Shown here: positions 14,985 to 63,293 of the stretch, piece by piece
Layout: each line of letters begins with the position of its first letter
How positions within the stretch are numbered: the stretch's first letter is position 1
NCBI GenBank assembly: GCA_031763025.1
Contig: JASSKH010000026.1
Span: 8,358,408 to 8,422,407 of the forward strand
Length of the DNA: 64,000 nucleotides
Reading direction: 5' to 3'
Source: Macrocystis pyrifera
Taxonomy: Eukaryota > Sar > Phaeophyceae > Laminariales > Laminariaceae
Program-made: the position numbers and the translations under genes
The notes under the pieces: generated by a model
Told to the model about the DNA's origin: nothing
The model's input: only the letters and a program-made list of their open reading frames with translations
Databases searched by the model: none

Positions 14985-15002
14985 GTGAAGGTCACTCGCG
15001 TG

Positions 15003-17701: not shown

Positions 17702-17746
<45 letters not shown>

Positions 17747-18759: not shown

Positions 18760-19663
18760 GGTAAACTCCAGGTGTTTCCTCGAGAGATTCGGAAAAAAAA
18801 AAAATAAGGGATTCCCGAGCGCGGGTAAAAGAGGTGTTTAGACGTCGGGCGATATGACGACATACAACATCTTCAGGCTTTTTACCGTGGCCACTAGGGC
18901 CCAAGCGGGAGTTCATGTTCATCACGATAGTCTCCCCACGACGAAGGTATTCCAAGACATCTTCACCATCGCCCTGCCACAACTCGTTCCATTCCCTCTC
19001 TAAACGCTCTCCCTCCATGTCATATCCTTCTCTGTACTGTGACACAAAAATCCTCCATCCTTGCTGAGGGCTCCCAGACGCGACGATTCGGTTTTGAGTC
19101 GGACCGTCGGTGATTTTTGTCAGCAGCAAGTTCCATACTCTCAAAGACTTCTCCACTCTTTCTGCACCTCTGTTCAATTTGAGCATTTCCAAATCCACGT
19201 CAGGCAACCCTACGGGAATGTCCTCGTACCCAAGAACGTCAGACAATTTCTCAGCTGCCAGATATGCACGAAATGAACTCTCAAACACCCTAAACTTAGT
19301 GTGAAGGCTTTCTCCTTTTCCTACCATACCAGTCCACTCTCTAATCTCAAGTTTAGTTCGTACTTCTACAGTTGTAGACATGCCTGAAGGGTGGGCGGCC
19401 CCGCTCTGTTGCCCAACCCCTTGACGTATCAGATCCGCCAGGATTGTCAGCCGCCGGATGTCCTCTGGACTCGGCAGGTCCTGTCGTGCATCCTCCCTCC
19501 TTTCCTCTGAGGCCACCCCTCGCTGATCAGCCTCATCCTGACCAGAATCCTGAGGAGATGCTGCTGCTCCTCCTCCTCCTCCCATCGCCATGTCTCCATC
19601 GATGACTGGCGTAATCCAAGTCCCCAGATAAGGAATCCTAAACGGGAAGAACCTCATCCTCAC
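18704..19663 (-). CDS. Copia-2 Gag
   Basis: 319 residues, the first large frame after the 5' LTR and the tRNA primer site. The middle (about 100-290) is helical and charged, like UBN2-type copia gag, with WTGMVGKGESLHTKF and VLEYLRRGETIVMNMN. It would form the particle shell. The last 30 residues (from about LIFFFSESL) are out of frame with the next segment because of the A12 run, so the true product probably continues into the protein encoded upstream of 18759. The start ATG at 19663 is the first in-frame one; a downstream Met (MAMGGGGG) is an alternative. Confidence 0.88.
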   Translation of the reverse strand: MRMRFFPFRIPYLGTWITPVIDGDMAMGGGGGAAASPQDSGQDEADQRGVASEERREDARQDLPSPEDIRRLTILADLIRQGVGQQSGAAHPSGMSTTVEVRTKLEIREWTGMVGKGESLHTKFRVFESSFRAYLAAEKLSDVLGYEDIPVGLPDVDLEMLKLNRGAERVEKSLRVWNLLLTKITDGPTQNRIVASGSPQQGWRIFVSQYREGYDMEGERLEREWNELWQGDGEDVLEYLRRGETIVMNMNSRLGPSGHGKKPEDVVCRHIARRLNTSFTRARESLIFFFSESLEETPGVYLDTGPARASAVRGRGTPK

Positions 19664-19708
19664 AGCCCTTTTGCACAGAAGCGTGGACGACTCGTACCAA
19701 TGCTAGCG

Positions 19709-20208
19709 TGTTGAGTAGCCCCTGTGCTCCGGGCGCCCTTGTTGTTGTTGCCGAGGGGGATAGCCCGATGCTCGGCGGAAAAGAAAGACGAAATAAACCC
19801 TATAAACAACCCGTACCCTTGTCGTGGCTGAGGAGCCCTGTTGATGATATGAAATGTATTGAAGCTGGACTTGATAGCAGCGGTGGCGGTGGCGTGTTAG
19901 CCCCTGGGTGGACGGACCCCCTTTTGTACGGTGGCTGATTAACCCCGGTTTAGTAGTTTGGATTGAAGGACGCGGAGTCCTGGACACGGAGTCCTCGACA
20001 CGGAGTCGGGAAAGGAAGTAGATTACAAGAAGAAGTAGCAAGCCACAGCGTACGTCACAGACACATGCGGCCTAAAACACAATTCAGGGGTAAAGATGGT
20101 ATCCCGATCGTAGATCCACTCAGACACGAAACCCCCCCGAATCTCCGCAATACCTCACGGGATATTTCCTCTCAAGATAATCTGACAATGCTGTGAGTAT
20201 ACTTTTCA
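19709..20208 (-). repeat. 5' LTR of Copia-2
   Basis: It appears identical to 12331-12830 over 500 bases. Just inside (minus strand, from 19708) lies CGCTAGCATTGGTACGAGTC, whose TTGGTACGAG part resembles a primer-binding site for an initiator-type tRNA. Copia-1b has a similar TGGTACAAG sequence inside its 5' LTR. Confidence 0.95.
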
Positions 20209-21231
20209 CATGGGACCTTAACCCTAACCCTAACCCTAACCCTAACCCTAACCCTAACCCCAACCCCTAACCCTAACCTAGGTGCCGAGGACATTGGGGT
20301 ACCGTTGGGGTTGCCATGACATTCCGTGGGGTTGCCATGGAGCGCCGTGGCGGTAGCTGCGGGGGTTGCCATGGTACTACCCATGGCATGTCATGGCAAC
20401 CCCCACGGCGTGCCATGGAATCTATTGCCACACCATGGTATGCCGTGGTGATGCCATGGTATGCCATGGGCGGTACCATGGCAATGCCACGGCATGCCCA
20501 CGACAAGGTCAAATAGTGTAGAACCCTGTTTGTGCTGAACCAACACGAACGAACATCTACTGCTGCTGCTGCTGTACCTACTACCTATACGCCGTCGTTG
20601 GTGAATCTCATAACCGTAAATATTCTTGGCATCATATCCTGCTCTTGAAAAACACAGACAGCACAGCAGTACGGACACACCTGAAACAAATACCAGGTAC
20701 TGGATTTTGTCGTGTGTATCCTGGTATTTCCACCTCGAAATCCGGCATAGTAATTTGAAGACGAAAATATGTACTACTGCTGTGTGACCACGGAACTGGC
20801 TGTCGACGGGTGGAAAGAACAAGACGACAAATAGACACACACCTGATATTTTTCCGTTTGTTGTTTTATCTTTCGAATTGGGTTGTTGTTATTCTTTTTC
20901 TCTGAGACGTGGGAGGGAGTTTTCCATTGTTCGGCATGAAACCGACGTCACTGACGGTTTTCCATGTTCATACCGACACCCTGTTACTCCGTGTAACAGC
21001 CCTGTTACTCCGTGTAACAGCCTCTATTACTCCATGTAATAGTTCTCTCTATTACTCCATGTAATAGTCCTATTACTCCCTCCCTTGGGCCCCCTCGACT
21101 GGGGCCTACTGTGAGGTCTCGGACGACCGAGTACCCCAAATGGTCTTCGACCATTCCAACTCCTGACAGTACGGAAATTCTGGTAGATTGACCTTCAATT
21201 TTTCAGGAAGGCTTTGCTCTTTATCACGTAG
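20209..21231 (-). repeat. Truncated third copy of the TIR arm
   Basis: It matches 23291-24309 and, in inverse, about 7670-8690: telomeric tract at 20215-20277, CCATGG lattice, hairpin quartet and the end of the 122-residue frame. It breaks at CACGTAG and continues directly into the central segment (GGTATCTATC). This is the junction of a tandem duplication of about 3.1 kb. Confidence 0.9.
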
Positions 21232-21718
21232 GGTATCTATCTGCTGTTGGCTAGGTGGAAGCAGCCGGGGGCAACGCTTGCACCGACGTGCTGTGCACGC
21301 CGCCCCGCAGTAGGAAGCAAGATGTCGTTGACTTGAAATCCCGGGGGTGTCGCTAGTTGAAACTGGGGGGAGCAGCATAATCGTCAGTGATCCCTATTTA
21401 CTGGTACTCCTGTGCTGTGTGACAGGACGAGAGGTTCGACGACGTGTACTGTATTTTAAAATTGTACTGCTGCTGTTGGACACTGCACACACATACACTA
21501 TACGAACATTGCTGCTGTATCGGTGCTGCTGCTGCTGCTGTATGCAAAGCCCGGTCCAGGGAACAGGGAACAAAGAAAGAGCAAAGTCCGCACGAGAAAA
21601 AGCAGAAAAAAAAGTTGTGCTTGAGTTTGAGATGCTGACCGAATTTTGCGAATTTCTGGCCGGCTGATCTGATGGTGACGTATTGATGAGCAGGTTGAGG
21701 TTGTGCGTTTTACTGGTA

Positions 21719-21823
21719 TTACGGGGGACCATAGTAAATAGGACCAAATATTGTTAGTAAAAATAGGGGAATATATAGGTTTTTGTATTTAACGTAGGTC
21801 CTATTTTCTATGGACCCCCGTAA
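21719..21823. mobile_element. MITE-1 copy (duplicated with its surroundings)
   Basis: Same sequence and position within the central segment as 10755-10859, with TA flanks at 21717-21718 and 21824-21825. Confidence 0.9.
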
Positions 21824-22080
21824 TAACAATTTCTCATCACCAGCGGATCATGCAAACAACCATACGAGATGTTTGTACTTTTTATCTGTGGTCTTCCGTA
21901 CTTCCGTTCCTTCGTACCAGGTGTCCGTTCCTTCGTACCAAGGTACTTCCGTTCCTCCCCCCCCAGGGCTGCTCATTGATATGTACGTCATGACCTACCT
22001 GTCGAAAGAAAACATGTTCGTTATTGATATTTCCGGAGTTTTTCTGGTGCGTTGAAGTTGTGGTTCGTTTGCTGTTGTTC

Positions 22081-22116
<36 letters not shown>

Positions 22117-22590
22117 TTTATCCCCCCCAGGGATTGTGGGGAGGATTGATAAAAATAAAGCCACCACATGTCCACACGTTCCAATTTCTTCGTCGAAATC
22201 GGAACGATTCGCTTGCAACAGTTGTGTGAAGGTTGCAGGTGGTGTAGTTTATGCGATTGGTGTTGATGGCATAGTATTATTAATAGTAGTACTCGTACAC
22301 GTCGACACTCCGCACGACGCCGACTTGACGACAGCGTATATTGTGATGATGGCATCGGCTCAGCAAGAAGAACAGCGGGCTTCAGGCATGAACGAGGTCC
22401 GGGTTGGCTTCATTAATGCATCGCCTTTGGTTCAGGTCTGCCAAGGAGGCGGGAAGAAGGAGATGGAGCAGCTTGGCGCAGCGAAGGTGCGAAAACTGGA
22501 AACTGAACTACTACAGCAGCAATTGACGAGTTGACTGCTGTTACGCGGTGGTTATAGTACCACAGGTACCAGGTATATACATACATACAT

Positions 22591-22910
22591 ATTTTTTTTA
22601 TTCATCACTTTTACTTTCCAGCCCACTCGTAGGAGGTTTTACCCTCGACGATCTTCTGGACAAGCCGTGGTCACAGGTGTCGTCCCTTCTCCCCCCCGGT
22701 ACGTGCCTTTATTTTTTGTCGCGCATAGGGTTCAGCATTCCCACTGCTCGTCGATTTTCATCGAATGTAGCCAACTCACGCTTTCGCGCTTTCCGCTTAT
22801 CAATTATTTATGCAAGAAAAATCCCTATGAGCATGCACTCGGTGAGACTTGAACCCACGAAATTGATCTTGACAGGCACGCGGACCACCTACCAAGCCAC
22901 CGGGGACGCC
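22591..22910 (-). mobile_element. SINE-1 copy (duplicated with its surroundings)
   Basis: Same as 11630-11946 except for tail length. Its body contains the uninterrupted AGCATTCCCACTGC that serves as the empty-site reference for the hAT-like insertion at 36082. Confidence 0.85.
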
Positions 22911-23120
22911 GACCACTATACTGAACCGTGTGTGTTCTTCACATTAAACCGTCCTTCTACTCGTCGACATCCAGCAAGCCGAGCGTCCGTGCTGATTCTT
23001 CACCCTAGAAAGACACGAGCTCTGTGGTCACAGACTACGACACACAGATAACACACCGTAATGCATTAATAGCCTACGCAATACCGTGCCTTCGCACTAG
23101 GTGCGGCCGACGCCGTAGTC

Positions 23121-26100
23121 TACTAGTAATTGGTGGTAATGAGGCGCGACCTCAGCAATACCTGCAGTAGTCATATCTGCGATGCATCATGCACAAAACA
23201 TTTTATGTACATTATTGTCTTTTTTCGCAATAATGCCGTGGCATGCCGTGGCACCATGGAACACTCCACGGACCTCCACGGCATACCATGGGACCTTAAC
23301 CCTAACCCTAACCCTAACCCTAACCCTAACCCTAACCCCAACCCCTAACCCTAACCTAGGTGCCGAGGACATTGGGGTACCGTTGGGGTTGCCATGACAT
23401 TCCGTGGGGTTGCCATGGAGCGCCGTGGCGGTAGCTGCGGGGGTTGCCATGGTACTACCCATGGCATGTCATGGCAACCCCCACGGCGTGCCATGGAATC
23501 TATTGCCACACCATGGTATGCCGTGGTGATGCCATGGTATGCCATGGGCGGTACCATGGCAATGCCACGGCATGCCCACGACAAGGTCAAATAGTGTAGA
23601 ACCCTGTTTGTGCTGAACCAACACGAACGAACATCTACTGCTGCTGCTGCTGTACCTACTACCTATACGCCGTCGTTGGTGAATCTCATAACCGTAAATA
23701 TTCTTGGCATCATATCCTGCTCTTGAAAAACACAGACAGCACAGCAGTACGGACACACCTGAAACAAATACCAGGTACTGGATTTTGTCGTGTGTATCCT
23801 GGTATTTCCACCTCGAAATCCGGCATAGTAATTTGAAGACGAAAATATGTACTACTGCTGTGTGACCACGGAACTGGCTGTCGACGGGTGGAAAGAACAA
23901 GACGACAAATAGACACACACCTGATATTTTTCCGTTTGTTGTTTTATCTTTCGAATTGGGTTGTTGTTATTCTTTTTCTCTGAGACGTGGGAGGGAGTTT
24001 TCCATTGTTCGGCATGAAACCGACGTCACTGACGGTTTTCCATGTTCATACCGACACCCTGTTACTCCGTGTAACAGCCCTGTTACTCCGTGTAACAGCC
24101 TCTATTACTCCATGTAATAGTTCTCTCTATTACTCCATGTAATAGTCCTATTACTCCCTCCCTTGGGCCCCCTCGACTGGGGCCTACTGTGAGGTCTCGG
24201 ACGACCGAGTACCCCAAATGGTCTTCGACCATTCCAACTCCTGACAGTACGGAAATTCTGGTAGATTGACCTTCAATTTTTCAGGAAGGCTTTGCTCTTT
24301 ATCACGTAGTTCACTGGTCAGCTGAGGTCGCGCGCTTCCCGTTTGAGATTGCTGTGCTTGTCGAACTGTATGGGAATGATCTCGTGTGCGAGCCCTCTTC
24401 TTGTTCACCAGGTATCTAAATATTGGACTCATGTCAATTACGTCGTATTTTTCCGACATCCGCTTAAACTGCTCACGCTTAGTTTCGTTTCGGCTAGTCC
24501 CTGACCTCCTCAGGGATACACGTAAAGTATGCGTTGGTTTTTCGCTCATCAATCATAGAATATTTCAACCTCTAAATTCGCAATTCGCCCGTTCACAACA
24601 AAACACGGATTGTTTCTCGATCTGTTCCAGAGTCTCCTCACAAGCCTTCCCTTTTTCCAACAGCAAGTGTTTTCTGGTTGAAATTCGGCATAATTAATTT
24701 GAACACGAAAAATCTGCATCTGAAAATATTTGTCCAACAGAAGACGCTTCTTTCTCGTAGCAGGTGCCACCACTACTTGCTTGTACTGATGTACGACATC
24801 TACATACAGCAGCTGTGTTTCTCCAGCAACAAAAACAGCAGCATCAGCAGTAGCAGTGGGACGCACGAGGCCAGGGTCAGCGTCGATGTACGCTCGGCGG
24901 CTCGGCTTGTCAATCTAACCCTTGAACCCTTTGTACACATCTACAGCAGCAGAAGTGTTTCTCCAGCAACAAAACAGCAGCAGCAGTAGCAGTAGGACAC
25001 ACGACGCCAGGGTCAGCGTCGCTGTACGCTCGGCGTGTCAATCTCACCCCTTGAACCCTTTGTACACGTACTCGATTTTGTCCTGTGTTGGTTTTGAACT
25101 CGAAATTCGGCATAATAATTTCAAGACGAAAAATCTGCACTCGACGTGCTCTGTCCAAGAGAGAACTTCTCGTAGCAGGTAGCAGGTGCCACCGCTACTA
25201 CTGATGATGTACGACATCTACAGCAGAGCTTCTCCAGCAGCAAAACAGCAGCAGCAGTAGGACACACGAGGCCAGGTCAGCGTCGCTGTACGCTCGGCTT
25301 GTGTGTGAACCCTTTGTACATGTGTTTCCTGGTCCCGAACTCATAATTTGAAGACGAAAAATCTACAATCTGACGTGTGTCCAGCAGAGCGCAAAATAAT
25401 TTCAAGACGAAAAATCTGCACTCGACGTGCTCTGTCCAAGAGAGAACTTCTCGTAGCAGGTAGCAGGTGCCACCGCTACTACAGATGATGTACGACATCT
25501 ACAGCAGAGCTTCTCCAGCAGCAAAACAGCAGCAGCAGCAGGACACACGAGGCCAGGTCAGCGTCGCTGTACGCTCGGATTGTGTGTGAACCCTTCGTAC
25601 ATGTGTTTCCTGGTCCCGAACTCATAATTTGTAAGACGAAAAATCTACAATCTGACGTGTGTCCAGCAGAGCTTCTTCTAGCAGTGCCACCACTACTACT
25701 ACTGCTGTACAACAACTATTATACAGCAGATACTCTCCTGCTTCTCAGTCCCCTCATCAGCAGGAGGGTGGGCCTGCAGCATGTCTCGGGGACATGACCC
25801 GAACGCTCGTTGCTGTGGACAGACACAGTCTGCCTACCTACGAGTACTCGTAGAGCTAGCTGGGTTTCAAAATATAATGTGTTGTTGGTTCTGTGTTTTT
25901 TCAACATGGCCCAGCACCAACATGTGCCTACACACGTTGCCACACCTAACTCGAGCTGCTGTGAACGACTTACCACCGCACCAGCACCAGGAGGTCTGTT
26001 TTGTGTGTGCGCGTCCACAGAGCCCGCCGGGACTGGAATTGGTGCGGTGTGCGTCGAGGGCGGTGGTCAAACGTTGCCCAAAAAAATGTTGAATCACACA

Positions 26101-26266
26101 CACATACACGCCTCACCACACACACACACACACATACAGAGAAACTCAAAACAAGGCACCCCACGCTCGTATCCGAGCCGCTATAAAGAGGCTTTTTTTT
26201 TCTTGGAAAATTCCAAGAAAAAAAAGGCTCGCCCGCTTTTAGCGCGCTTCGCGCGCCTCATTATAA
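23121..26266 (-). repeat. Right arm of the giant palindromic element
   Basis: 3146 bp and uninterrupted. It is the inverse of the left arm and carries the telomeric tract at 23294-23356, the hairpin quartet at about 24055-24145, the 122-residue frame at 24184-24552 (minus) and the tandem units at about 24680-25660. The outer edge ends in TTATAA at 26261-26266, followed by TAGCTAGC. It serves as the reference for the empty sites of both insertions. Confidence 0.92.
23294..23356 (-). repeat. Interstitial telomeric repeat tract, right arm
   Basis: CCCTAA units with the same variant order (CCCCAA, CCCCTAA) as the left tract, which shows arm homogenisation. A third tract lies at 20215-20277. Confidence 0.95.
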
Positions 26267-26496
26267 TAGCTAGCTGAAGTTTTTCTGGTACGGAGAGAAA
26301 TATGTACATACATGTATATATATGAATACAGCATTGCTGCAGTGTGCCGGTGTGCGTGTATCTCTCTTTACCCTATACATATACGGGTAGACTAGGTAAG
26401 GTAGAATCGGATTTTTGATGCTGCATGAAAAAACAAAAAGCAATGCCCAACATACCCAGCGTGTCTCTGTCTACGAAAAACGTACCCACCCGTGGT

Positions 26497-45216: not shown

Positions 45217-48200
45217 GACGAGGAGGCGATTCGAGAAATACTGAAGAAATCGGGGTTCCGAATTCGTTTCCGCTCGGTGGTAGCGACGCCTACGCGTGTC
45301 TGTGAACTCCTCAACGATGGCTGTCAGATTATCCACTACGTCGGTCACGGGGACGAGGATTACCTTTCGTTCGAGTCTGACAACGATCGGCATTGCGGAA
45401 TCATGGAACCGCTCAAGGTACCGCCGCCGCCTTTTTTGTCAATTTAAGTTGCTAATGTCAGGCTTGTTGCGAGTTCGTTTTAGCATGTCACGTTTTATTT
45501 GTGCAAATGTGGCGACCTTGACCCTTTTGAGTAGTGCACTGCACAGAAACCGAAATATGACACTTATTCCTAGTGTTTCTTCCTCACAACGAAAGTGCAG
45601 TCCTGAAGGGGTTAAGCTCTAATTTTGCCCGTCCGTCGAGCAGTAAAGGAAAACAAGAAGAAAAAAGTTGTGTATCGGAGGCGTTCGGCCTGAGAAGACT
45701 TGGAAGGCCGCGATGCACGCCTTTCGCGCGAATCTTGTTTCCAAAAATGACGTAATTTTAATACTTGGGCCACGGGATTATTCATCGGGATGCAATTTTG
45801 ATTTTGCTGAAGTCAGTGTTCGGGTGAGGTGTGGAGCTCCTCAAGTGAAAAGCCTCAGAAAAAATTAGGGTGAACCTCTATATCGTAGAACGCCTCTTCT
45901 CGACCTCACAGCAGATGTTTTATTTATTCTTATTTTTTTCGTCATGACCATGAGTTTTTCCCGTGGGGGCATCGGTGGAAAGGTTCTGATATCTCACGTT
46001 CCCCGTGTTTGTTGAGGCACGAACAATCGCTTGCCCCTCGGGACAATACAACGCCAAACTTGACACTCATATATACATTCCAGTGACACTGCCGTCGAAA
46101 AATTGCTAATTGCGCAACTCGCTTTTTTCTATTGCGCAGCTCCTTTTCTACCACTACTACTGTTGTAGGACCACGCCTCCGACATATTGCTGCACTGCTC
46201 CCACAGACGGAACGTGTCACATTATGAAGCAAAACCTGCATATTACCAGTGGTGAACCTTGAGCATTGCTTCCACAGAGAGCGTCAATAGCAGACGATGA
46301 GAATGTCAGTCGTGGGCTATTCACAACCTGGGCACCTCTCGCCTACCGCCAGGTGAACGTCCTCAAGAACCTCTTCAAATCGAAGCACGTGAGGACGTAT
46401 CTGGTCTTTGTCAGCTCGTGCTGCTCGGAATCGAGCGGGAAAGCTTTCGTCGATGCTGGGGTGCCGCACGTCGTAGCAGTCAAGGCAGGGGAATCGGTGG
46501 CCGGTAAGATGTCGGTGTACCCCCATGCGTCAAGAGTAGCTTGTTGAATATTTCCTGGACCATCCTTGAACCCACACGGGTGAAGCGCTGAACTCACGCA
46601 CATGTTTTTTTGCATTGGGCTATGAAGATAAGCAGCAAACAAACACGCGGCGTAAAAAAGGGAAAGTTGACGTGATGCAGGATGCAGCTATCATACCCTG
46701 CACGTTCGAATTCACCGTGACTGGTGCTGATTGTTGCCAGGCCATAAACCAAGACACCCCGGCCGTCAAGCATGAGGCTAGCACCACATACTGAGCGTGC
46801 TGATACCGTTCAGTACCGCCTTGAATTCTCCAGCGATACTTATCCAACAACCCGAGAGCGAAACGGAAGAATTATTTTTTCTCATTTTTTTACGAAACAC
46901 CTCGTCAAAGGTGACATAATGTATGTCACCTAGTACAGCAGCAGTGCACAGCCGCGCTTTACTCCCCAAGGAATGAACAATGAGCTCTTTTAGTTCCGTC
47001 GTTCATGTTGGTTCGTTGTTCGGCCGTGCAGTAGTTCCCCATGTACCCCGCCCTCATTTCCAACAGAACAACTCGCTTGCAGTACCACGAAAGCCCCTTT
47101 TCGCGATTTCGCGAGACACAGCATGGCCGTCTCTCGACGAGAGGGTTGACGTGGCTCGTCCGTTCGTCTGTTTGAAAAGTTCCTTGCCGCCGCCCAATTC
47201 CCTCGCGCTCTTCTACCGGTGTCGACAGACGAAGTGGCGCACTTGTTCGGGAGATTGTTTTACGGCGCGCTGTTGGGCCCACAAAGATACGGAGTGCAAG
47301 AAGCATTCGACAGGGCTTCCGTCGTAGTCTCGATCGAGGCTAACGCTAGAAACTCTGAGGGGCAGGGAGGACCTTTTGTTCTGCTGCCTCGCGGTGAGAA
47401 GAAGGGGCATTGATACGAAGACGAAGAACGTAAAACGCGTCCGTAGTCCCGTTAATATTGTTGCTGTACGGTGCTGAGCCAGTTTCTGAACATTGGTAAT
47501 CAGGCAAATACACCCGTTTTCGGTTGTGCTTTTTCTTTGTTGAAGTTTTGTTGGAGCACACCTGTAGGTTTTGAACGGTGCACAGCCGTTACGTGCCTCC
47601 AACGCTGTCCCACATAAGCTCCCGTTGCAATCTTCTTTCTTTGGGGCATAGGTTCTCCCACGTGTCGTTTTGTTGGACAAGGTTCTGTTCATGGGTGTCT
47701 TCCTTATTGACGCTTTGTCTTTGTCCCGCAGGACAGCTGGTCTAGAGCTGGTGTCTGTGTGCATATTTCAGCCGGATTGACATGGTTTGGTCTGTTATTA
47801 ACGCTGCAAACGTTTGTTAGGGCCACTCCTAACGAACAAAAAAAATCACGATTCGTGAGATTTTTGTCGTGAATCGTGATTTTTTTTGTCGTGAATCACG
47901 ACAAAAAAAATCACGATTCATGACGCCAATTTTTTCAGCTTTTCTCTAAAAAAAAAACAAAATCACGATTCGTGACATTTGTCGTGTCTCAAAATACGCC
48001 TGATCAAGGCACTACGCAACCCGCGTGCACTAACGGTATCCGATGGTCGGCATAGGGGCATGGCAGACTTTGCTTCGTACGCCGCTTGTGGGCAACGGGC
48101 GGCTACCCAAAGACACCGCTGGGCGCGGGCTAACGAGGAGGTTGTGGCCTCGAAATTTCCAAGAGGAGGAGCCACTGCTGGAAGGTAAACGCGAAAATGA

Positions 48201-49572
48201 CCTGGGGATGTCACAGGCCAGGCCGGGCCGACGGCCTGCGAGATGGAATCTCGCGAAACGAGCTTGGCCGACGGCCGGTGAAGTTGGAATCTCGCAGGCT
48301 GGGTCAGGCTTCGGCCCGCAATTCGAATATGTCACGGGCTGGGCCAGGTGCGGACGGCCCAGCCCGGCCTGGCCGTGCCCCACTCTCGAGAGTTTGCTCC
48401 ACACCCCCAAAAAAAACGTTGGGTTTGAAATATCAGAACTTAACTATTTGAAAATATCACGAAACGCGACGTTTTTCGGCTTTTTTCGTTAGAACTGAAA
48501 GGTCACGGATCGTGATCTTTTGGCACGCCTAAAAATCACGAATCGTGATTTTTTTTCGGTTCGTTAGGAACGGCCCTTAGCTGGGGTGGGGTGGGGGTAG
48601 GGGGCGATCAACGATCACTATTTTTCATCGGGGCATAACATATAGCGCGATATATTTCCAGCCGAGGAGCATCGTCTTCCCGTAGTATTTACGACGTACG
48701 GCTATTTATTTTGTTTTTTATACCCGGCTCAGTGGTAAGAGTTGCGATGGTTGGTCGCACTGTCCCTCCCGCGTGACGTGACGCAACGGCTTGTCACCCA
48801 TCACGCCTGCTTTCTGTATCGCAAGAAATAGGACGCCGTAAGCTTTTCCCAGGCAACACATGAATCACCCAACATCGTATTTTGTTTTTCTTCTTCCCGT
48901 TGATTATCTTCGCCTTTCTTTTCTCTTTCGCTCCTAGTCGTAACTCAGATCTGGGGTCACACAGCAAGCTCTCCTCTCCCCTCCCCACTACGATTCTTGC
49001 CTTCCTTTTTATCGCGAGAAGACTTCAGCCATTCCTTCTCTCGTCGACTCGCGTCGAAATGGACCCACCCACGCTACGCCCTCTCAGCAGTTGATTTATT
49101 TTCTGTCTGATTGTACGTAAAGAAATTCTCACCACGGTGGGATTGGAACTCACAGAATCAACTCTAGCAGGGTTCGAGGGTACCACTGAACCACCGGGGC
49201 GACCGGCTCTTGGAATACCTTTAATAGTATGTGTTTTTACAGTATTATTCGCTGTATACCTAGGTCATGGGATTACAATTCGGGTTGCAATTTCAGTTTT
49301 TCTCAAAGTCAGGCTTTCAGTTTTTTTTGTCACATGTGGTATGGAGCTCCCCTAAGCGATTAACGTCATAAACCGTAGGTGTGCTGTTAATACCCCTATT
49401 GAAGCACTGCGTCACACGCTTATGCCCTCGTCGTACAGGCGGAAACCACGACGATCCCATCCTCGACCAGGTGCCCAGAGGCGACTTCATCGAGGAAACC
49501 CTGCCCCTACCGGAAGTCCGTCCTTGTCTACCGCGTGCCCGACAGCCCCACATGGGCATACCGGCCCTTCAG
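45217..49572 (+). CDS. CHAT domain half (exons 1-4 of the fusion gene)
   Basis: Exon 1 (67 codons) starts DEEAIREILKKSGF and contains IIHYVGHGDEDYLSFE, with the GHG histidine motif of CHAT proteases. Exon 2 encodes TYLVFVSSCCSESSGKAF followed by VDAGVPHVVAVKAGESV, the strand with the candidate catalytic Cys and the following strand. Exon 3 completes ADEVAHLFGRLFYGALL, AFDRASVVVSIEA and GGPFVLLPR, the standard end of a CHAT domain. Exon 4 is a linker (GGNHDDPILDQVPRG) ending MGIPALQ. The order His then Cys and the spacing fit clan CD peptidases. The expected N-terminal strand and helix are missing, so at least one upstream exon lies before 45217. Confidence 0.85.
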
Positions 49573-52500
49573 GTGTGACGAGCGTGTTTGCTTCTTTGCT
49601 GCCTTTGTTTTTTAAAATAAAGCCGACGGAGTCATGAATAGTGTGCGACGTTGTGTGATACGGCAATTCTGTCTTGGCTGCGTATGGAGCTGGTGCTCTT
49701 GAATCGTTCGTTGCTGGTGTTGCCAATCGGTTGGGGCCGTTGTCTGCACAAGGTACTATTTGTTGGCCGCCTATAAGTCGCCGACTGGTTATTAGTTGGC
49801 TAGGTATGCTGGTTTGTTGCGTACAGTGTTGCGTACAGTGTTTTGCGGGGCTCTGCACCTTTGGTATATGTCTGACTGGCGCATTTGCGGCTGGATGTGT
49901 GTTTCTGCTGACGAAACATATTTAAGCTATTCATTTGACTTACTCCGCCACCCAAATAATAACTAGCCGTGAAGTCCAGCCACCCGACAGCTCTAGCTGT
50001 TTTTGTTGTTCTTTCGCGACAACTCTTGTACCGCGTTCCACATTGTTTTTACGGCGACCGCGATTCCAAACCCTTTTTGCGATAAGGCCGCGGGAATCCA
50101 GCGGTTGCCGCCCACGAGGGTCATGACTCACCGGCGTAGTCCCCGGTGTTGCAGTGTTAATCAAAGCGTGGGCGGTGAAAATGTCTCTTAAGCTATCGGG
50201 CAGCAAATACATACCAACGGGCGGCTGTTGAGACACAAAGCTGACATACGCACACGATAATGGACTCTCTTGGATCTTATGTGTCGCACGCCAGAAACTC
50301 TTGAAGCCGCTGCTATGCCCTTCGGTAGCATGCGTGACGGTGGTCGGCAAGCGCGGATCGGGTAAGACTCAGAGGGCTATCCAGCTGTGCAAGTACGTAC
50401 GAGAGCGGAGGAAGTTCGATGGGATGTTCTTCGTGAGGTGCGACAAAATCATGGAGAGCGCCGGCGTGTCTCCATCACGGGGTTGGGAGCCAGCACAGGA
50501 CCCCTGCTGGTTGGTAAGGGCGAATTCTGTATTACATACATATGTCTCCTGGGGTGTACGTTTTGTTTCAAGCCACTTTACTTTATCGTCTGTGACAGTC
50601 TTCTCGCGTCTGAAGTGTTTTTGGTCCTTGGGTTGTCGGAATGACTGTCGGAAGAGAGAAAAAAGCAATGTGAAACCTCCCCTTTGACTATGAATAGTCG
50701 CGCGCGCTGTACTGTCTGTGGATTGGGTGCTCCGCAAAGACCGTTGGTGGGCGGAATGGCCACCCTACTTACGCACTAGACCAATGACATTGGAGGCTTC
50801 GGGGCGCAACTTATATTTTTTAGAGTGTCAGGTCGTGCTCTATTCAGCAGTGCTGCGCAACGCGCTGTTTATCTCGGCACGTTGTTCGCCTTTGTGTGTA
50901 CTTAAGGGTTTATGGCTTGGTGCTTGCCTTTCTAGCACCGGACTTATGGGATGCTGTACCGTCACCATTCCTGAACCGGAAGAACGGGGCAAAGGGAAGA
51001 TCACAACGTACTTTGCAGTTCACCTCTTGGAATCACTTATCTTCTTTTTGCGTTCTGTCCGCGCGTCCTACATAGGATGGTGAGCGCTCCCCTTTAGTGG
51101 ACGCCATTAATTATAATCCAAACGTTTGACGCGTCTCAACCCACCGTGAATGGCGCGCAGATTGGACGAGCCGTTGGGATGAACCCCCCCCCAAGCTCCG
51201 TCCAACAGCTGGCCGATCACCTCTTCAGCCGGAATGAGGGGGGTTCCCATCCTCGCACTGTAAGCGGGATGTGCTGCCTGTAGATTGCTGTTGTTTTTTT
51301 TTTCGTCGGTGCCTGCTGTTACCGCTGGTGTCTCGCGTGGCTTCCTGTGGTTCTATATAAGTCATATCGACCGCGCCTGCTTCGTATGGTTCCACCTCAC
51401 ATAGGCTTGTTCTTATCTCGCGATGCTGCCGCGGAAACGGATATGTTCTTATTGTGTGCGCTGTCGGCGTGCTTGTGCTTGGGGTCGTTCTCCGTCTGTA
51501 CTCGCGCGCGCACGACCCTCACCCAGAGGTTTGGGTAGCTGACGCCGTGAGTGATTTCTGCTTTTCATCGATTGTCATTCGGTCCCCAACGTTACCGTGA
51601 TGCGGCCCACATGTAGCGTATCGAGCACGTAGTCGGTGACTTTAGGCATGTAGGGGTGTTGTTCGTGATAGAGGTGTCTCCGCCAACACTTGAAAGGTAT
51701 ACCTTTGGACGCCCGCGAATTTGCGTCAGCCGCGAGCACGCAAGAGACCATTGCCAAACAGCCCCTGTAACCAGAAGGAAAAATAACGACTACACGTAGA
51801 ATTGACTACTTATTTCGTATTTTTGGTTAGCGCCGCGGTCGCGGTAGTGTGGGTTGCACTTTCTTGGGGGAGGGGCTAGCAGGTGAGTGGATTTTCAGGG
51901 CGTGTATCTCGCACACGTGGGAACAGCCCATTTGCTTAGTGAGGGGTAAATAATGTTGCGTTTCGGTGTGCCCAACTAGCCGTTCGTCGTCCGCGCATTC
52001 TGTCTCAAAGCGTACGGGAGCGCGTTATACTGCTCCATGGTGCTGGGCTTGAGATCGTTTTATTTAGCTTGTCCAAGCCTGCGTCACGTCTAATTGGTGT
52101 GTTTAATTCGCTCGACGGTGACCATAGGCCCGTCGGCTGTAGCTCTAGGGCGGTAGAATCGTCATTTCACGTTTCTCTGCCTCTTTTGTCGACAATGTCG
52201 TTGTCAGGTTCTCCTCGTCCTGGACGGCGTTGACGCGCTGGTCGAAGAATGGGATCGGGATGCGCGAGGCAGATTCTTCGACTTTGCGAGCTCCCTCTGC
52301 TCCAGGCAAGACTCCTACACGCTGAAGCTGCTTGTGACAAGCAGCTTCAGGGTGGACCACGATTCGTACACTTGCTTCGAAAGTGGTCGCGAACAGGTGA
52401 AGGTTGAGCTTGCACTGTAGTAGAAGGAAGGGAGGGGGGGGATGTCAACCACAGTCCATGCAGGCAACATGCATGTTTTTCTTGACCATCGAAAGAGGCG

Positions 52501-53916
52501 TGGTCGGCGTTGCATTCCCATTTTTCGTTTGTTTTGGAGGAGGGATCCTCCTGCGGAGAACCCTTTTTACCCCAACCGAACCGTCTTCTATGCGGGCACG
52601 TGTTACTGATTGTTTGCGAAGCGTTTGCGAGGCGAGAGAATACAGAAAAGCAAACAATGCCTTTCATCTGTTTTTGTTTTTATTTTTGGTGAGTTGGCTG
52701 TGTTGCCACGGGTCCTGTCTTTCCTCCCTTCCACCAAGGTTATTTCGACACTAGACAAGTGGCCGGGACCCCCCCCCCCGCTCGCACAACATGGACGTGA
52801 AAAAAATCCTTGTGGAGACGATGAAGACTGTAGCACACCTTAAGAGTACCAAATTAGGAGATTGTCGACACCTTGCGAGGTTAGCTACATTGTTCAAAGC
52901 CTCCACAATGTAGCAAACCCCACAAGGTGTCGACAACGACTCGATTCGGTACTCCTCATGGTGAGCTACATTGTTCAACGTCTCCGCAAAGGTTTGTTTA
53001 CGCCCACATTGTGGAGCGGGGGTCGCGGCCGCCTGTGCACTTACGCCAGCTTGATCATGTTAATGCACAGGCCGTCATTTGGTTGTAGTTCGTTGAATCG
53101 AACCATTGCCCATTTGAGGTCCCTTCCACGAACCCTCCGGTTGAATGGCTGAAAATACGATAATACAAAAAAGCATGCCTTGTAGCCGGTCTGCCGAGGG
53201 AATATTGCGCTACACGTTCGGTCGGTTTTCTGCGGTGGTCGGCGAAGTAGATGGCCTAGATCAGCGCTAGCCACGCACGACAGGACGAGAGACAACATAC
53301 CGCAGGCACACAACTGGCGGGCCAGCCTGCTACAATATCAATAGTAAACTACTCTCCCCGCTACCTCGCCCACCCCGTATTTGCCCATGTTGCTCCTATC
53401 CCCTCATTCCGATACCTATCGATCATAAGCATGACCATTGCCCGTTCTTGTGCTCGGTTTGATGGCCTCGCGGGGAAATAGGTAGTGACCATAGCACCTC
53501 TGGAGGGCACGGACCCCGCCCAGCTGTTTCACGACGCTGTTTCACGGCCATTGACACGGGTTGAGGTCGGCATTGATCCGGGCTTCTCGCGCAAAGAATT
53601 GTTGGAGGCGTTGCTAGGGCGCCTTGAAGAGGCGAGGGGGCATCCAGGGACATTGGTGAGGGACGCTCTTGCTGGTGGTTTAGAGCAGACGGTGTATGTT
53701 TCGGCTGATGTACAGTAGTTACCGATGCTGCTGATGCTGATGCTTCAACTCAAACTTATCCTCGTCCGCGTCATTGCGATTAGCATTGATCCAAGAAGAG
53801 GAGACAACTACCAGTACCTTTTTTCCTTTCCTTCTGACCGCTTGTTTTCATGGTTTTCCCGGCTTTCACTTTTCGGAATCAAGCTCGTGAGTCGGGAGAT
53901 GTCCGCGCGCGCGCGT

Positions 53917-53971
<55 letters not shown>

Positions 53972-54254
53972 AAAAAACCTCGATGCAAGAAGAAGACGGG
54001 TGAAAGCACCCGTTCCTTTACAAACGTTTCCGATCGCCTCGGCGCACGACGTATCCGCCCCTGGTGCAGTAGCAGCGTTTGCTCCAAACCCTAACCCCAA
54101 CACCCCAACCTGAAGCAACTTAACTGCCTGGTACTGCATACTGAGCTGTTTCGGCTACCCATGCACACGCGCCTTCTTGTTTTTAGGTGACCCTTGCTTC
54201 GACAATTCACGACGTTGACTTGCGCTCAGCTTCCTTCGTAGAGAAGGCAGCCAG
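45217..54254 (+). CDS. CHAT protease - NB-ARC/STAND NTPase fusion gene (partial, at least nine exons)
   Basis: Exons read from splice signals and conserved motifs: 45217-45417, 46353-46503, 47229-47393, 49439-49572, 50295-50513, 51161-51259, 52208-52396, 53482-53655 and 54187-54254. All introns start GT and end AG, and all joins keep frame (phases 0, 1, 1, 0, 0, 0, 0, 0). Exons 1-4 encode a caspase-like CHAT domain with its His and Cys motifs. Exons 5-9 encode a P-loop NTPase with Walker A, Walker B and an NB-ARC-type GxP motif. No stop or frameshift falls inside. The first exon(s) and the 3' end were not identified. A possible continuation at 54697-55027 fits the phase but has no recognisable domain. 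The product is likely a cytosolic nucleotide-gated switch controlling a protease, by analogy with STAND immune receptors; substrate and trigger unknown. Confidence 0.82.
45522..45611. mobile_element. MITE-2 (piggyBac-like) copy in intron 1 of the CHAT-NTPase gene
   Basis: CCCTTTTGAGTAGTGCACTG at the left after TTGA; AGTGCAGTCCTGAAGGGG at the right before TTAA. About 90 bp. Confidence 0.75.
47820..48576. mobile_element. Harbinger-like MITE in intron 3 of the CHAT-NTPase gene
   Basis: 757 bp with ends GGGCCACTCCTAACGAAC and, on the other strand, GGGCCGTTCCTAACGAAC. It is flanked by TTA on both sides (47817-47819 and 48577-48579), as in PIF/Harbinger. Subterminal blocks consist of repeated ATCACGATTCGTGA palindromes. 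The centre (about 48200-48390) is GC-rich with GGCCGACGGCC repeats. No transposase. Confidence 0.88.
48876..49207 (-). mobile_element. SINE-2 copy with tRNA-like head, in intron 3
   Basis: Minus strand from about 49207: GGTCGCCCCGGTGGTTCAG, A-box-like GGTTCAGTGGTA and B-box-like GAGTTCCAATCCC. Then a 230 base body with GTCGACGAGAGAAGGAATGG, GAAGTCTTCTCGCGATAAAA and GGCGAAGATAATCAACGGG. Fullest copy of the family in the window. Confidence 0.82.
50295..54254 (+). CDS. NB-ARC/STAND NTPase half (exons 5-9 of the fusion gene)
   Basis: Exon 5 has Walker A in TVVGKRGSGKTQRAIQLC, then FDGMFFVRCD. Exon 6 (33 codons, IGRAVGMNPPPSSVQQ to GGSHPRT) is the helical segment before Walker B. Exon 7 starts VLLVLDGVDALVEEWD (Walker B) and has LKLLVTSSFR (sensor-like RNBS-B position). 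Exon 8 has VVTIAPLEGTDPAQLF and ends GHPGTL, the GxP motif of NB-ARC. Exon 9 (VTLASTIHDVDL) follows. Exons 5-8 each encode whole codons (219, 99, 189 and 174 bases). No TPR, LRR or WD40 repeats were found downstream before repeat DNA resumes at about 55.1 kb. Confidence 0.83.
52845..52953. mobile_element. Foldback element in intron 7 of the CHAT-NTPase gene
   Basis: A 109 bp inverted repeat from AGTACC to GGTACT, with stem blocks TTGTCGACACCTTG / CAAGGTGTCGACAA and GCTACATTGT / ACAATGTAGC. A partial repeat of one arm follows at about 52960-52995. Confidence 0.75.
53919..53966. repeat. GA dinucleotide microsatellite in intron 8
   Basis: About 24 GA units followed by an A run. Frames through it (Arg-Glu repeats) are artefacts. 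Confidence 0.95.
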
Positions 54255-55027
54255 GTGTGGAAATATTTTATTTATGTTGGCGGCCGTGCTTATTGCCATG
54301 ACGTATATCTTGTTTTAGACATTACAGGGGTGATCAAGACGCCTTTCCTTTTGCTCGATGAGATTAGGTCAATATTTGTCGCCGTTGCTTGCACTGCTCA
54401 TCGGCATGTTGGCGTGCTGCCCGGGTGGACCGAGTTGGCATATAGGGAGAAAATGGGAGGGTTTAAGAATGCGGATCGGAAAAAAATTGTCGTGCAGCAA
54501 CCGTTCGTCCTCAGAAGGCGGTAGGTCCGTAGCGACAGATGGTGGGATACGCTGTCATGTTTCGTCTGCGGACGGAAGGCTCCTCGCTAGTTTTTTACAC
54601 TAAGAGATAACCCCCCACCTGCACCACCCCTGCCCTCCCTTTTGCACCTCGTTTCTTCCAAGCCTTTGGGAGTCGTTCCAATCGGCATCGAGACAGCATC
54701 CCCTCCGGAACGACGGTGGCACGCGCGGAACAAATCCCCACGGCCCCGGGGCGCGCGGCCACAACTACGCACGCTGTCCCCAGCAACACGACCCGAGATG
54801 GTCGTGTACCCGAGATGGCTCGTAGCTGGTGTGTACGCCTAGACTCGATTGCCGATGGCCGGTCAATACACAGTCAAAATAAAGGTTCGAGGCAAACCTA
54901 TAGCCACTGTCAGGTGACTTGTACGAGAAGCTTCAATAGAAGAGAAGAAGAAGATGGTGTGGTGACCCCAAGCCACAGTGTTGATTCATTTGCTCAGCTG
55001 GAAGCTGATGATGGTGAGCTAACGTAG

Positions 55028-58276: not shown

Positions 58277-58281
58277 ATGTC

Positions 58282-58532
58282 TGTTCGTAGAGTCCAAGCC
58301 TGGATGCCCTGACCACCACGTGGTCTGATGATATTTTTATAATCGTTGTATTAGAGGACAGGGAGGGGAGAGAGAGCGAGCCTAGCTCGTAGCTCGGAGC
58401 AGAGAACGGAGCAGAGAACGGAGTGCTCAAATTCTCCTCGTGAACACACGGCATAATTCATAATAACGCCTGCGAAGAAATACGCAACCCTCTACAACTT
58501 GTAACCGTCGCTGTTGGAACGATCCAAACGAA
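58282..58532 (-). repeat. 3' LTR of Copia-1b
   Basis: Plus strand TGTTCGTAGAGTCC to GATCCAAACGAA. The adjacent CTCCCTCTCTGGC (purine-rich on the minus strand) is the polypurine tract. Confidence 0.9.
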
Positions 58533-58849
58533 CTCCCTCTCTGGCTCTTCACAGCAGTGACGAGACCGAAAAGACATTCAAGACTTGCTAGGACCTAAGA
58601 ACAGCCAATGACAGTCCCGCAGGAGGAAACCCGGCCACCGGGTCAAAACCCCCTGTATAACACATGTACTCCAAACCATTGCAATTGAAACAACGGCCGC
58701 ATTCCAAACGATGACCATGGCCAGAAAATAAAATGCCAAGCGGTGCCCTACTCCTCCATGCCCCTCAAAGTAGCGCAGGGTTGGCGACCTGACAAATTAT
58801 TCCTCGCATCACTCAAACATGGTACTCATCGAATAATGCTCATACTCCC

Positions 58850-59848
58850 TCACTCACCCTCCAAAGGCATATTCAACAAGAACCTACGGTGAGACTTAAA
58901 AGGGGTCGCAGCCAGGGATTTCGTCAAAATATCCGCGTGCTGATCTTCCAAAGCTACGAACTGAATGTCGATCTTCTTAGCGCAAAGTAGCTCTCTGACA
59001 AAATGAAATCGCACGTCGACATGCTTACTCCGAGCAGAACTAAGAGGGTTTTCAGCCAACGCTATGGCCCCCTGGTTATCCTCGAACACACATGATCCGC
59101 TTAGCTCTGGACATATAAACGACAACACCGCGCCCGTAAACAAAGCTTCCTTCACCCCTTCACCCAGGGCGACATACTCTACTTCTGCTGTCGACAACGT
59201 AACACACCTCTGTGTGCTACTTGCCCAACTGACGGCCGCACCCCCGAGGGTAATTACCGTCCCCGATACCGAGCGCCTATCGTTCGACTTATCCGCATAA
59301 TCAGCATCACTATACGCAGTCCAATCCAAACCCGAGCCCCGTACAAAAATCAATCCCATAAACCTGGTCCCGTGGAGGTAAGCCATAATCTTCAAAACTG
59401 CTTTCCAGTGCCTCTCCGTTGGGTTGTGGGAGTGGCGCGCCACAGCACGTACAGCGTTCGAAATGTCCGGCCTCGTCATGGTCGACAGCCACATCAAGCT
59501 GCCCACAGCCTCCCTGTACGGCCAGTCTCCTCCAAGTTCGCCCTCCTCTCTTGGACCTAGGTCCACACCGGGGGTCGCGGGGATATCAGAGGATGAGTTA
59601 ACACCAAAACGATTCAGCATGCTCTCAATGAACGCCCTCTGCGTAATCTCCAATGTCCCCAGTCCCCAGTCGCGTTTGAAAGCACAACCAGTGTACCAAG
59701 TCAGTTCGCCGAGGTTATTCGTGGGAAAATTCATAGCTAGCGTGGCATGGAAATCTCTGCATGTCTCATCCGATCCTGCGATCACGATGTCATCTACATG
59801 AACGGCCATGACCAGTTCTACCTTGCCGTCCACAACCATGCGAAACAC
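58850..59848 (-). pseudogene. Copia-1b reverse transcriptase C-half and RNase H
   Basis: 332 residues in one frame, nearly identical to the Copia-1a frame at 507-1511. It has VHVDDIVIAG, LTWYTGCAFKRDWGLG, YSDADYADK, STAEVEYVALGEG (Ala to Val change in the usual TAEAEY), EDNQGAIALAENP and HADILTKSL. The RT fingers and first catalytic Asp are absent. About 170 bases that Copia-1a still has between VEPPPQSVA and the DP-C/V-FRMVVDG region are also gone. The deletion joins two AGCAG motifs. Confidence 0.92.
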
Positions 59849-60079
59849 ACACGGGCCAGACCGACACTGCTACGGACTGTGGGGGCGGTTCTACGTCTTC
59901 CGGGAAACCACTCGGCATGCACACGCTCAACTCCCCTTTGTTCTCCACAGCAGGTCCTCCGGCCATCAAAGCCACTGCGTCCTCCATCGTCCAGGACGCA
60001 CGACTCAGCATACTCCCAGGCTTCGTCCACGACTCGTACGCTGCCGCAAGCAGCGCGTCTGCGGCTCCTTCATCCATCC

Positions 60080-60697
60080 TTACCTGGTGCACGGCAGGTT
60101 CACCCTCCAGGCGTTGGCTCTGACCCCGGGTCCGGCCCCGTACTGTCGGGGGGAGCCGGCCCCAGATGCTGAGCTCGTGTGCTGTCCTCCCCGACGGGAC
60201 CCCGGGGGATCCTCACCGTTCCCTTGGACGGTGTCGGAGGTTGATGCTGTGTCCGGGTCGCTTCCGGCCCTCCCTGCCGGGACCGAGGAGGCGTCCACGG
60301 CGCCCCCTTGAGACGAACCCATCGTCTCGGGTGTTTCGGCCCTCCCTGCCGGGACCGAGGAGGCGTCCACGGCGCCCCCTTGAGACAAACGCATCGTCTC
60401 GGGTGTTTCGCCGCCGGCCTCGCCGGCGGCAGGTGCCTGCTGTGCGCGCTCCAGCATAAACGCGTCCAGGTCAAAACCCCACGTCACGTCGAGGTCGTTC
60501 AAGTGAACCAGACCGTCGTCCAGCTCATCCACCACCCCCCCACCACCTCGATCCGACGTGCTCACGTCGTCTGCCTCTGACCCCCCTTTTTCCGTAGACA
60601 GGGAGCCATTCGCCTCGGCAGGTACAGGTGGTGTAGGCGACACTCGTTGCCAGGTGACATTGCGCGTTATTAGCACAGTGCGTTTCTTTGTCAGCAC
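60080..60697 (-). pseudogene. Copia-1b integrase tail and gag-pol linker
   Basis: The start VLITRNVTWQRV resembles the C-terminal strand of copia integrases. A low-complexity acidic linker follows with a 2-fold tandem repeat (TPETM, SQGGAVDASSVPAGRA). It is out of frame with both neighbours. 1-105 of the window is the same linker in Copia-1a. Confidence 0.8.
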
Positions 60698-60818
60698 TCG
60701 TACTGAGTCTCGGGAGTTGTTTGTTGCAGGGCCAAGGTAAAAGCAATCTTGTGTTTTCGATGTGACTTGTTTTCCCTCTTAACCTTGCAGTAGCCAGGCT
60801 TGAGGAAGGGCAGTAGTA

Positions 60819-62855
60819 CTACCGGGGGGGGGCTACCATGCCACATCTCATGCGGCAACTTGCTCTGCGGGTTAGCTGTTGTTGCTGTGCTCGTGATCTA
60901 CACAGGTCGCCAAACTTTCCCCCGCGGAATTCACCACCCCCATCAGATCGGACGATTACCACCGTAGAAGGGATACCGTCTGCACGAGAATCCGCAAGAA
61001 ACTGCTCGAACATTTCTGCGTCGTCCGACTTGTGGCGCATAGAGTACACCCACGTATATCGTGAAAAATCGTCGCGCACGATGAGAGTATACCGCTTCCG
61101 CCCGAGAGACTCCACCACCTTCGGTCCACTCAAATCCACAAAAACCCTCCCGAGCTTCTTATCTGCTCGTTTGTGTGTGGACTGCTCGATACCTTTGCGG
61201 AGACCCTTTGCCATGGAACACCCTTTGCACTCCAGCAGCCCTCCCTCGAGGACAATCCCTTGCTGCTCCGCGGTCTTGCGAAGTAGTACCTCGTGGGAGT
61301 GTCCAGCAGCGCAGTGAAAATCGTTGATGTTTATCGCAGACTCGTTGGGCAGTTGTCCCGGGGCGAGTACAGCACAGGCATTTTCCCCACAACTTCGGTC
61401 GACCCGGTAGCCGTACAGGCTGTAGAGGGTCCCACTCAACGGAAACACGATCGAACGCTCTGACTTGAGCCTGACTACAACCCCCGCGGGGCGCCCTTCG
61501 AAAGTATGGCCGTTTTTGACGAGAGTGGGCAGGGAAAATAAGTGGTAGCGGAGATCCGGCACGTGCGCAACGTTCGTAAGCAGCACTTGCACGGGACCGT
61601 TTCCGGACCGAAAGACAACGCTTACGTCGCCGAAACCTTCGATCGCTCGGGTGGATCCGTCAGCGATTCGGAGAGTCAAGTTGCATTCTCTATAGTTAAT
61701 CATGCAGTCAGCGGAGGGCGTCATGTGAGTAGACGCACCACTATCACATATCCAAGCCTCGTCTCCTACCTGCCAAGCAGACTCCCCTTCCCCCGAACCA
61801 TCGCTCCACTTGCCTGCCTCTTCGGCCTTGAAAGCTGAGGCCTGGACCGTACCTTTTTCTTGGTCGTCGTCCCTTGCCCCATCCTTGCTCGTCACCGCCA
61901 TGGCAGCTTCTTCTTTCGATGAGGGGCAGACATCAGCAGCGTGCCCCAGCCCGTTGCATCGACTGCATCGATCCGTGGACGTGGGACAGGCATCGGCAGA
62001 GTGCCCGCGTCCCTGGCATCGACTGCATAGCTTCGCCGTGCACTCGCTCCTCCAATGGCCCTTCTTGCCACACCTATGACACTTGCCCACTGGAGTATTT
62101 CCGCTGGCGGCTTTGGCTTTGCTGCCATTGCCACCAGCAGCCGCGGCCGAGCCACCACCGTCCTCGTTGGTGCCTCTATCGCCTCGTCCGTGACCCCGTC
62201 GTCCACCTTTTTCTTTGCCATTTCCTCCACCTTTCCCGCGACCACCGCCACCACCGCCGCCGCCGGTGTACATCGCATGGCCTGCGTGGCCAGCGTTGGA
62301 CCCGTTCTTCCTGTTTCCAGAAAGTCGGTAATGATGTTCTCGAACAGCCTTAATGATGTCATCTCGGCCGATGCTGTCACGTGATGCCAGGTTCCGAGCC
62401 TCCACCTCGTATTCAGCGCCAGGGTATGCACCCCATCCTCCTGTCCTCCCATACTGGTCTGGATGACCCCTCGGTGGGCCAACCTCGACAGGCAACGCAG
62501 TTCCTCCGCGTCCAGTTGTTCCCAAATCTGGCGAGGCGCCCTCACGCAAATTTGTCTCTTCTTGTTCTGCTGCAATATCCCTTGCCATGCCTACAGCAGC
62601 AGCAGGGATCTCTCTCACAGCATTGGGTACTGCCCCTTGTGGGCTCTCCCCTACAGCAGCGCTACCCTCAGCGCTGCCGGACTCCGATCGACCAATGCCT
62701 GCTTCAACAGCAGCAGTAGTATCACGTACTTCAGCAGTGGGTACTGCCCCTCTTGGAATTTCCCCTACAGCAGTAGTTCCTACCTCTGCTGGACTCTCTC
62801 CTACAGCAACGCTGGCTTCAGCACTGCCTGGCTCCGATCGACCGTTGTTCCTCAT
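60819..62855 (-). pseudogene. Copia-1b gag, three zinc knuckles, protease and truncated integrase
   Basis: 678 residues. Three CCHC knuckles are clear: CHRCGKKGHWRSEC, CSRCQGRGHSADAC and CSRCNGLGHAADVC. The protease motif is WICDSGASTHMT. The integrase has HCAAGH with CKGCSMAKG, Asp in FVDLSGPK and Asp in VRSDGGGEF. The reading then breaks and the catalytic Glu block is deleted. The natural gag start is at 62996 (MPSKGSAQQEHDSLSDVE, a coiled-coil-like N-terminus), one frameshift away from this frame near 62860. Three knuckles are more than the single one usual in copia. Confidence 0.9.
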
Positions 62856-63038
62856 GAACTCGGGCCATCATGCTCCTCATGGCATACATCATCGATGCCT
62901 GCCTCTGCTCCAACGCCAGCTTGATCTCGCGTCGCAGCGTTTCAACGTCACTCAGAGAATCGTGCTCTTGTTGAGCCGATCCCTTCGAGGGCATCGTGGG
63001 CTTCTTGTACCAGACCTCAAACGTTCAAGACACTAGTG

Positions 63039-63293
63039 TGTTCGTAGAGTCCAAGCCTGGATGCCCTGACCACCACGTGGTCTGATGAGATTATTTATAA
63101 TCGTTGTATTAGAGGACAGAGGAGGGGAGAGAGAGCGGAGCCTAGCTCGTAGCTCGGAGCAGAGAACGGAGCAGAGACGGAGTGCTCAAACTCTCCTCGT
63201 TGAACACCCGGCATAATTCATAATAACGCCTGCGAAGAAATACGCAACCTTCTACAACTTGTAACCGTCGCTGCTGGAACGATCCAACGATCA
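63039..63293 (-). repeat. 5' LTR of Copia-1b
   Basis: 255 bp. On the minus strand it begins TGATCGTTGGATCG right after the target duplication GACAT and ends ACGAACA. It is followed by a leader with TCTGGTACAAGAAGC, a candidate primer-binding region, and the gag start at 62996. Confidence 0.92.

Follow-up and report, generated by a model that had tools for sequence, protein, structure and literature searches.

A truncated CHAT–STAND NTPase gene of Macrocystis pyrifera and its probable place in a brown-algal family with a STAT-type SH2 domain

Multicellularity arose in brown algae separately from its origins in animals, plants and fungi. Several described systems resemble parts of the gene reported here. 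CED-4 and Apaf-1 recruit a separate caspase through CARD, and the bacterial, CRISPR-linked SAVED-CHAT (PDB 8tl0) joins the CHAT protease to a SAVED domain, with no STAND NTPase. Fungal NLRs with an N-terminal, caspase-like CHAT protease preceding a STAND NTPase in one chain are known; those described carry WD40, TPR or ANK repeats and often lie next to gasdermin genes (PMC10197012, PMC12881547). Candidate receptors of the NB-ARC-TPR and ROCO types have also been described in brown algae, and tandem duplication of the NB-ARC-TPR proteins is reported (PMC11378527). Here we analyse a stretch of 64,000 nucleotides of Macrocystis pyrifera (the window; positions 8358408-8422407 of contig C207 in a genome of 537 Mb) and a gene copy within it, called W. 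This intron-rich eukaryotic gene is predicted to encode both a CHAT protease domain and, directly after it in the same chain, a STAND-type P-loop NTPase. W probably belongs to a receptor-like brown-algal family with the order CHAT–STAND NTPase–linker–STAT-type SH2, as a member that was truncated recently and is under weak constraint; it is most likely a relic, a decaying duplicate.

An earlier note on this DNA had proposed nine exons at 45217-54254, joined in frame through canonical splice sites. All positions, borders and phases were verified: AG precedes and GT follows each exon, the phases are compatible, and the joined protein is 466 amino acids long without a stop. The nine exons proved exact, but the gene is larger than proposed, with an exon upstream (E0) and a cut-off exon downstream (E10). 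The Discosporangium protein P0001 aligned with the joined protein at 46% identity over 97% (E 6.7e-100), and individual W exons matched P0001 by tblastn with E values down to 3.8e-20. Thus, the nine-exon assembly is not due to chance. The exons are as follows.

E1, 45217-45417, + strand: CHAT, with the GHG His motif
E2, 46353-46503, + strand: CHAT, with the SSC Cys motif
E3, 47229-47393, + strand: end of CHAT, terminating in LLPR
E4, 49439-49572, + strand: connector from CHAT to the NTPase
E5, 50295-50513, + strand: NTPase, with Walker A GKRGSGKT
E6, 51161-51259, + strand: NTPase
E7, 52208-52396, + strand: NTPase, with Walker B VLLVLDGVDAL; site of a one-base insertion in the duplicate copy P, described below
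E8, 53482-53655, + strand: NTPase, with GHPGTL
E9, 54187-54254, + strand: last of the nine exons

In Pfam searches, the joined W protein exceeded the cut-offs for CHAT (PF12770; 29.7 bits, cut-off 24, E 5.7e-7) and NACHT (PF05729; 32.4 bits, cut-off 26.7, E 1e-7). Its His and Cys motifs, IIHYVGHG and VFVSSCCS, fall in the columns of the GHG and NAC residues of 8tl0, which we take to be the catalytic residues of that protein; the CHAT domain claimed earlier is thereby borne out. The NTPase, previously described as NB-ARC/STAND, holds as a STAND-type P-loop domain with Walker A and B but not as NB-ARC (PF00931), for which it scored 11.4 bits against a cut-off of 23.5. Because none of 12 brown-algal relatives reached the NACHT cut-off, the subfamily label is loose. 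A structure model of a relative predicted the SAVED-CHAT protease fold together with a CED-4/Apaf-1-like NTPase, and in a fold search the modelled NTPase was nearest to CED-4/Apaf-1 and plant NLRs. The apoptosome analogy drawn earlier is in keeping with this model, with other AAA+ proteins close behind. A model of P0010 (mean predicted local distance difference test score 46) and the fold search based on it were not used. LRR, TPR, WD40 and ANK repeats were not found by Pfam in the joined W protein or in nine SH2-bearing relatives. No Pfam match to a winged-helix or ARC2 domain followed the NTPase, where a low-complexity linker begins soon after GHPGTL and structure matches were indecisive. 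Nothing useful came from PADLOC, NCBIfam or Rfam.

A first protein search returned six proteins, and the three strong matches, covering 97-100% of the query, were all brown-algal: P0001 and two proteins of Ectocarpus sp. 12, P0002 and P0003 (43% and 42% identity to W). A profile search returned 16 proteins, comprising 11 of brown-algal type (P0001-3 and P0007-14), two oomycete CHAT–NACHT–TPR proteins and three others. Most of the other brown-algal members were 37-44% identical to W over 92-98% of the query. All close relatives with a source name are brown-algal, and a brown-algal origin of P0012, from EukProt, was inferred from the tree. A C-terminal SH2 domain was found in eight of the 11 brown-algal-type proteins; none was seen in P0001-3, but all three are labelled partial. 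CHAT and SH2 both exceeded the Pfam cut-offs in nine proteins, including P0020 from EukProt, and P0021 and P0022 have SH2 with no CHAT match. The family architecture thus runs CHAT–STAND NTPase–linker–SH2. When the family profile was compared with solved structures, the best matches were STAT2, Dictyostelium STATa and STAT6 (2.6e-8 to 5e-7), and the STAT match took in part of the segment preceding SH2. The SH2 Arg was conserved in 11 of 11 proteins. No Pfam match to the STAT coiled-coil or DNA-binding domains was found in the nine SH2-bearing relatives, so these proteins are not STATs.

A STAT-like SH2 and the lack of recognised repeats set the algal family apart from the fungal CHAT NLRs, and no gasdermin was found, in a weakly controlled search. 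The oomycete proteins P0016 (Aphanomyces) and P0017 (Saprolegnia) likewise have CHAT and then NACHT, with a C-terminal TPR in place of linker–SH2; they align with 58-60% of the query at 27-30% identity. The brown-algal NB-ARC-TPR proteins are also STAND NTPases; they have NB-ARC with TPR (PMC11378527), whereas here there are CHAT, a NACHT match, SH2 in the relatives and no TPR. SAVED-CHAT shares the CHAT fold and the His and Cys columns. Unlike CED-4 and Apaf-1, the algal family has its protease fused to the NTPase. No kin were found by tblastn of plasmids with P0001 or in a GTDB scan with P0006. In open-access papers, judged mostly by title and the start of the abstract, we found no description of SH2 joined with CHAT and NACHT. 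SH2-bearing members of the family are already in databases, one under the name 'SH2 domain containing protein'. The family is more novel than the earlier note held, and the window copy is probably a relic. Two further observations concern individual proteins. P0019 has a leucine-rich-repeat match with a CHAT-like segment at its end. P0012 (g2338.t2) and P0020 (g2344.t1) have close gene numbers and lie in different tree clades; they perhaps represent a similar gene cluster in another brown alga, the shared genome being inferred from the numbering.

Searching the genome with the W protein yielded 29 exon matches, all of them on C207 except for one doubtful match (E 0.56). The 28 on C207 form three clustered copies, all on the + strand: W, P (8599568-8655875) and Q (8719498-8731239). 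The paralogue search proposed in the earlier note, made genome-wide, thus yielded two further copies clustered with W. P is 94-96% identical to W over four aligned blocks and is its duplicate, or twin. Relative to W, E7 of P contains one inserted base. The linker and SH2 exons of P come shortly after E9 and are in different frames, owing to either an intron or a shift. In Q, a span of about 12 kb contains, in order, CHAT with both catalytic residues, the NTPase, the linker and SH2; either an intron or a shift alters the frame in one low-complexity part of the linker, and no first exon was found in the region examined. In trees with the oomycete P0016 and P0017 as outgroup, W and Q were sisters (97/99), with branches of 0.78 for W and 0.31 for Q.

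W is without the linker and SH2 part carried by its relatives. Its homology to P ends within an exon that in P continues in frame into the linker:

E10, 54663-54825, + strand: cut-off linker exon; homologous to P up to 54804, with a stop codon ending at 54825

The product of E0-E10 is 567 amino acids long. No linker or SH2 exon of W was found with hidden Markov models (HMMs) in the window (best E values 8.9 for SH2, 1.6 for linker A and 0.29 for linker B) or with 40 kb downstream added (2.5, 2.5 and 0.47). Genome-wide, SH2 matches at E < 0.01 were confined to P and Q, and the fifth match had an E of 0.68. The self-contained sensor-effector once claimed for this locus is thus not supported for W, since it has lost the linker and SH2 of its relatives. 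Two other ends of the gene were considered, a natural end at 54361 through an acceptor at 54319 or 54328 and a read-through to 54318 with a hydrophobic tail. Both are less likely than E10 at 54663, because the equivalent acceptor in P reads in frame into the linker.

The earlier note had also read selection from the intact frames of W. Substitutions between W and P were as frequent in E1-E9 (47/1400, 3.36%) as in introns and flanks (285/8043, 3.54%; p 0.81). For E0-E9, the nonsynonymous rate (dN) was 0.030 and the synonymous rate (dS) 0.047, giving a dN/dS of 0.63 that did not differ from 1 (p 0.13; 511 of 513 codons used, with P read in the frame of W). Simulated neutral copies stayed open in 335 of 1000 cases at 2% substitutions and in 66 of 1000 at 5%, so that an open frame is no evidence of selection for the recent period. 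As the exons have diverged as fast as the introns since the duplication, the intact frame does not support the claim. The divergence of W from its paralogue is neutral-like, with some constraint possible, and the refuting outcome named in the earlier note, paralogues that mark this copy as a neutral pseudogene, is thus partly borne out.

In full-length members, SH2 may read a phosphotyrosine, either that of a partner or, as happens in STAT dimers, that of a second chain. Binding of phosphotyrosine would release the NTPase, which would exchange nucleotide, and the ATP-bound chains would assemble as in CED-4 and Apaf-1. The clustered CHAT domains would then cut a substrate, probably triggering cell death or defence. 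W, if expressed, would be a protease and switch without SH2, an ungated or interfering form. If this scheme holds for the full-length members, one chain joins three steps that animals spread over receptor/STAT signalling, the apoptosome and the caspase, and tyrosine phosphorylation is linked directly to a death-type protease. The family provides a definite case for testing whether evolution assembled regulated cell death a second time from the same components, and W illustrates the decay path of such a gene: duplication, loss of the sensor part and transposon insertion. A possible but somewhat doubtful extension is that brown algae evolved a phosphotyrosine-gated apoptosome in a single chain, combining a caspase-like protease with a switch that resembles Apaf-1/CED-4 and an SH2 reader of the STAT type, and that in this species truncation has begun to convert one copy into a short form that lacks SH2 and takes on a new role.

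Several observations weigh against W being a decaying member of a family built in this way. At the level of the family, non-STAT SH2 domains followed close behind the STATs (ABL2 7.1e-7, others weaker), and AAA+ proteins (NSF, ORC) lay within about 1-1.5 Z of CED-4 in the fold search. P0002 and P0003 have Gln in place of the CHAT His (GQG) and keep the Cys, and are possibly pseudo-proteases within the family; Walker A was not intact in two of 12 relatives. No gasdermin was found in the genome, in an insensitive search whose control matched 1 of 14, below the cut-off. The CHAT family profile gave 0 matches in the same genome despite the CHAT exons present, which indicates that family profile searches are insensitive there, the gasdermin search included. 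A HET-S search gave no match anywhere, controls included, and was uninformative. At the level of W, the dN/dS of 0.63 leaves room for some constraint, and indel events were rarer in E1-E9, with 1 against 40 in introns (p 0.024), a contrast inflated by intron repeats; a further in-frame indel, of 6 bases, lies in E0. Of the 112 family-invariant columns, W retains 92 and Q 99, whereas at variable columns W matches the majority in 124 of 347; this comparison indicates coding constraint during the earlier part of W's history. Its frame is open while that of P is shifted, and W may make a shorter working protein.

These last points bear on the proposal that W functions as a short form without SH2, either a decoy or an always-ready CHAT–NTPase, and is changing fast. 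The open frame of E0-E9, the retained catalytic and Walker motifs, the scarcity of exonic indels (with the same inflation by repeats) and the longer branch of W than of Q would fit it. Against it stand the equal exon and intron rates, the dN/dS not different from 1 and the simulations, by which an open frame is unsurprising, and we consider it unlikely.

It is more improbable still that the missing linker and SH2 reflect an assembly error and that W is really full length. The region is repeat-rich, and blocks within 5699-26268 are 99-100% alike, a setting in which assemblies fail, but homology is lost within an exon just before a stop codon, no linker or SH2 was found in the next 40 kb, and significant SH2 matches are confined to P and Q.

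The upstream part of the gene lies in a duplicated and transposon-rich region, with the following features.

E0, nearer copy, 22346-22486, + strand: first coding exon, with ATG, 47 codons; N-terminal family HMM E 3.2e-6
E0, upstream duplicate, 11383-11523, + strand: identical to the copy at 22346-22486; N-terminal family HMM E 3.7e-6
Tandem unit copy A with E0, 10266-12330, second part 20209-21231, + strand: 99.4% identical to 21230-23290 by self-comparison
Tandem unit copy B with E0, 21230-23290, then 23287-24309, + strand: 23287-24309 is 100% identical to 20209-21231
Copia-type long terminal repeat (LTR) retrotransposon, 12330-20208, - strand: splits the first tandem unit; 501-bp LTRs 100% identical; RVT_2 and rve matches

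Among 2718 six-frame segments of the window, the N-terminal family HMM found the two E0 candidates only (next-best E 0.49). Each of them lies in one of two tandem copies of a 3.1-kb unit. E0 is joined to E1 of W across a 22.7-kb first intron, in phase 0 and gap-free around the junction against P0001. In P, the same exon lies 42 kb upstream of E1, which indicates that the gene characteristically has a very long first intron. That E0 is an orphan or part of another gene, with W starting near 45.1 kb from a different first exon, is suggested by the length of the intron and the duplication of the exon with a retrotransposon between the copies, but is improbable given the counterpart in P, the gap-free junction and the want of any other N-terminal candidate.

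The identical LTRs of the element at 12330-20208 indicate a recent insertion. A 3-kb inverted repeat (5699-8752 vs 23213-26268) is 99.9% identical, and a 1023-bp part of it is present in three copies at 100% (7656-8678, 20209-21231 and 23287-24309); the repeat and its copies represent either a recent rearrangement or an assembly problem. Short TTAGGG-type, telomere-like arrays lie at 8630, 20222 and 23300. A second copia-type element, at 58279-63290 on the - strand, has LTR-like ends of ~255 bp that are 95% identical, and matches to reverse transcriptase, zinc-knuckle and integrase.
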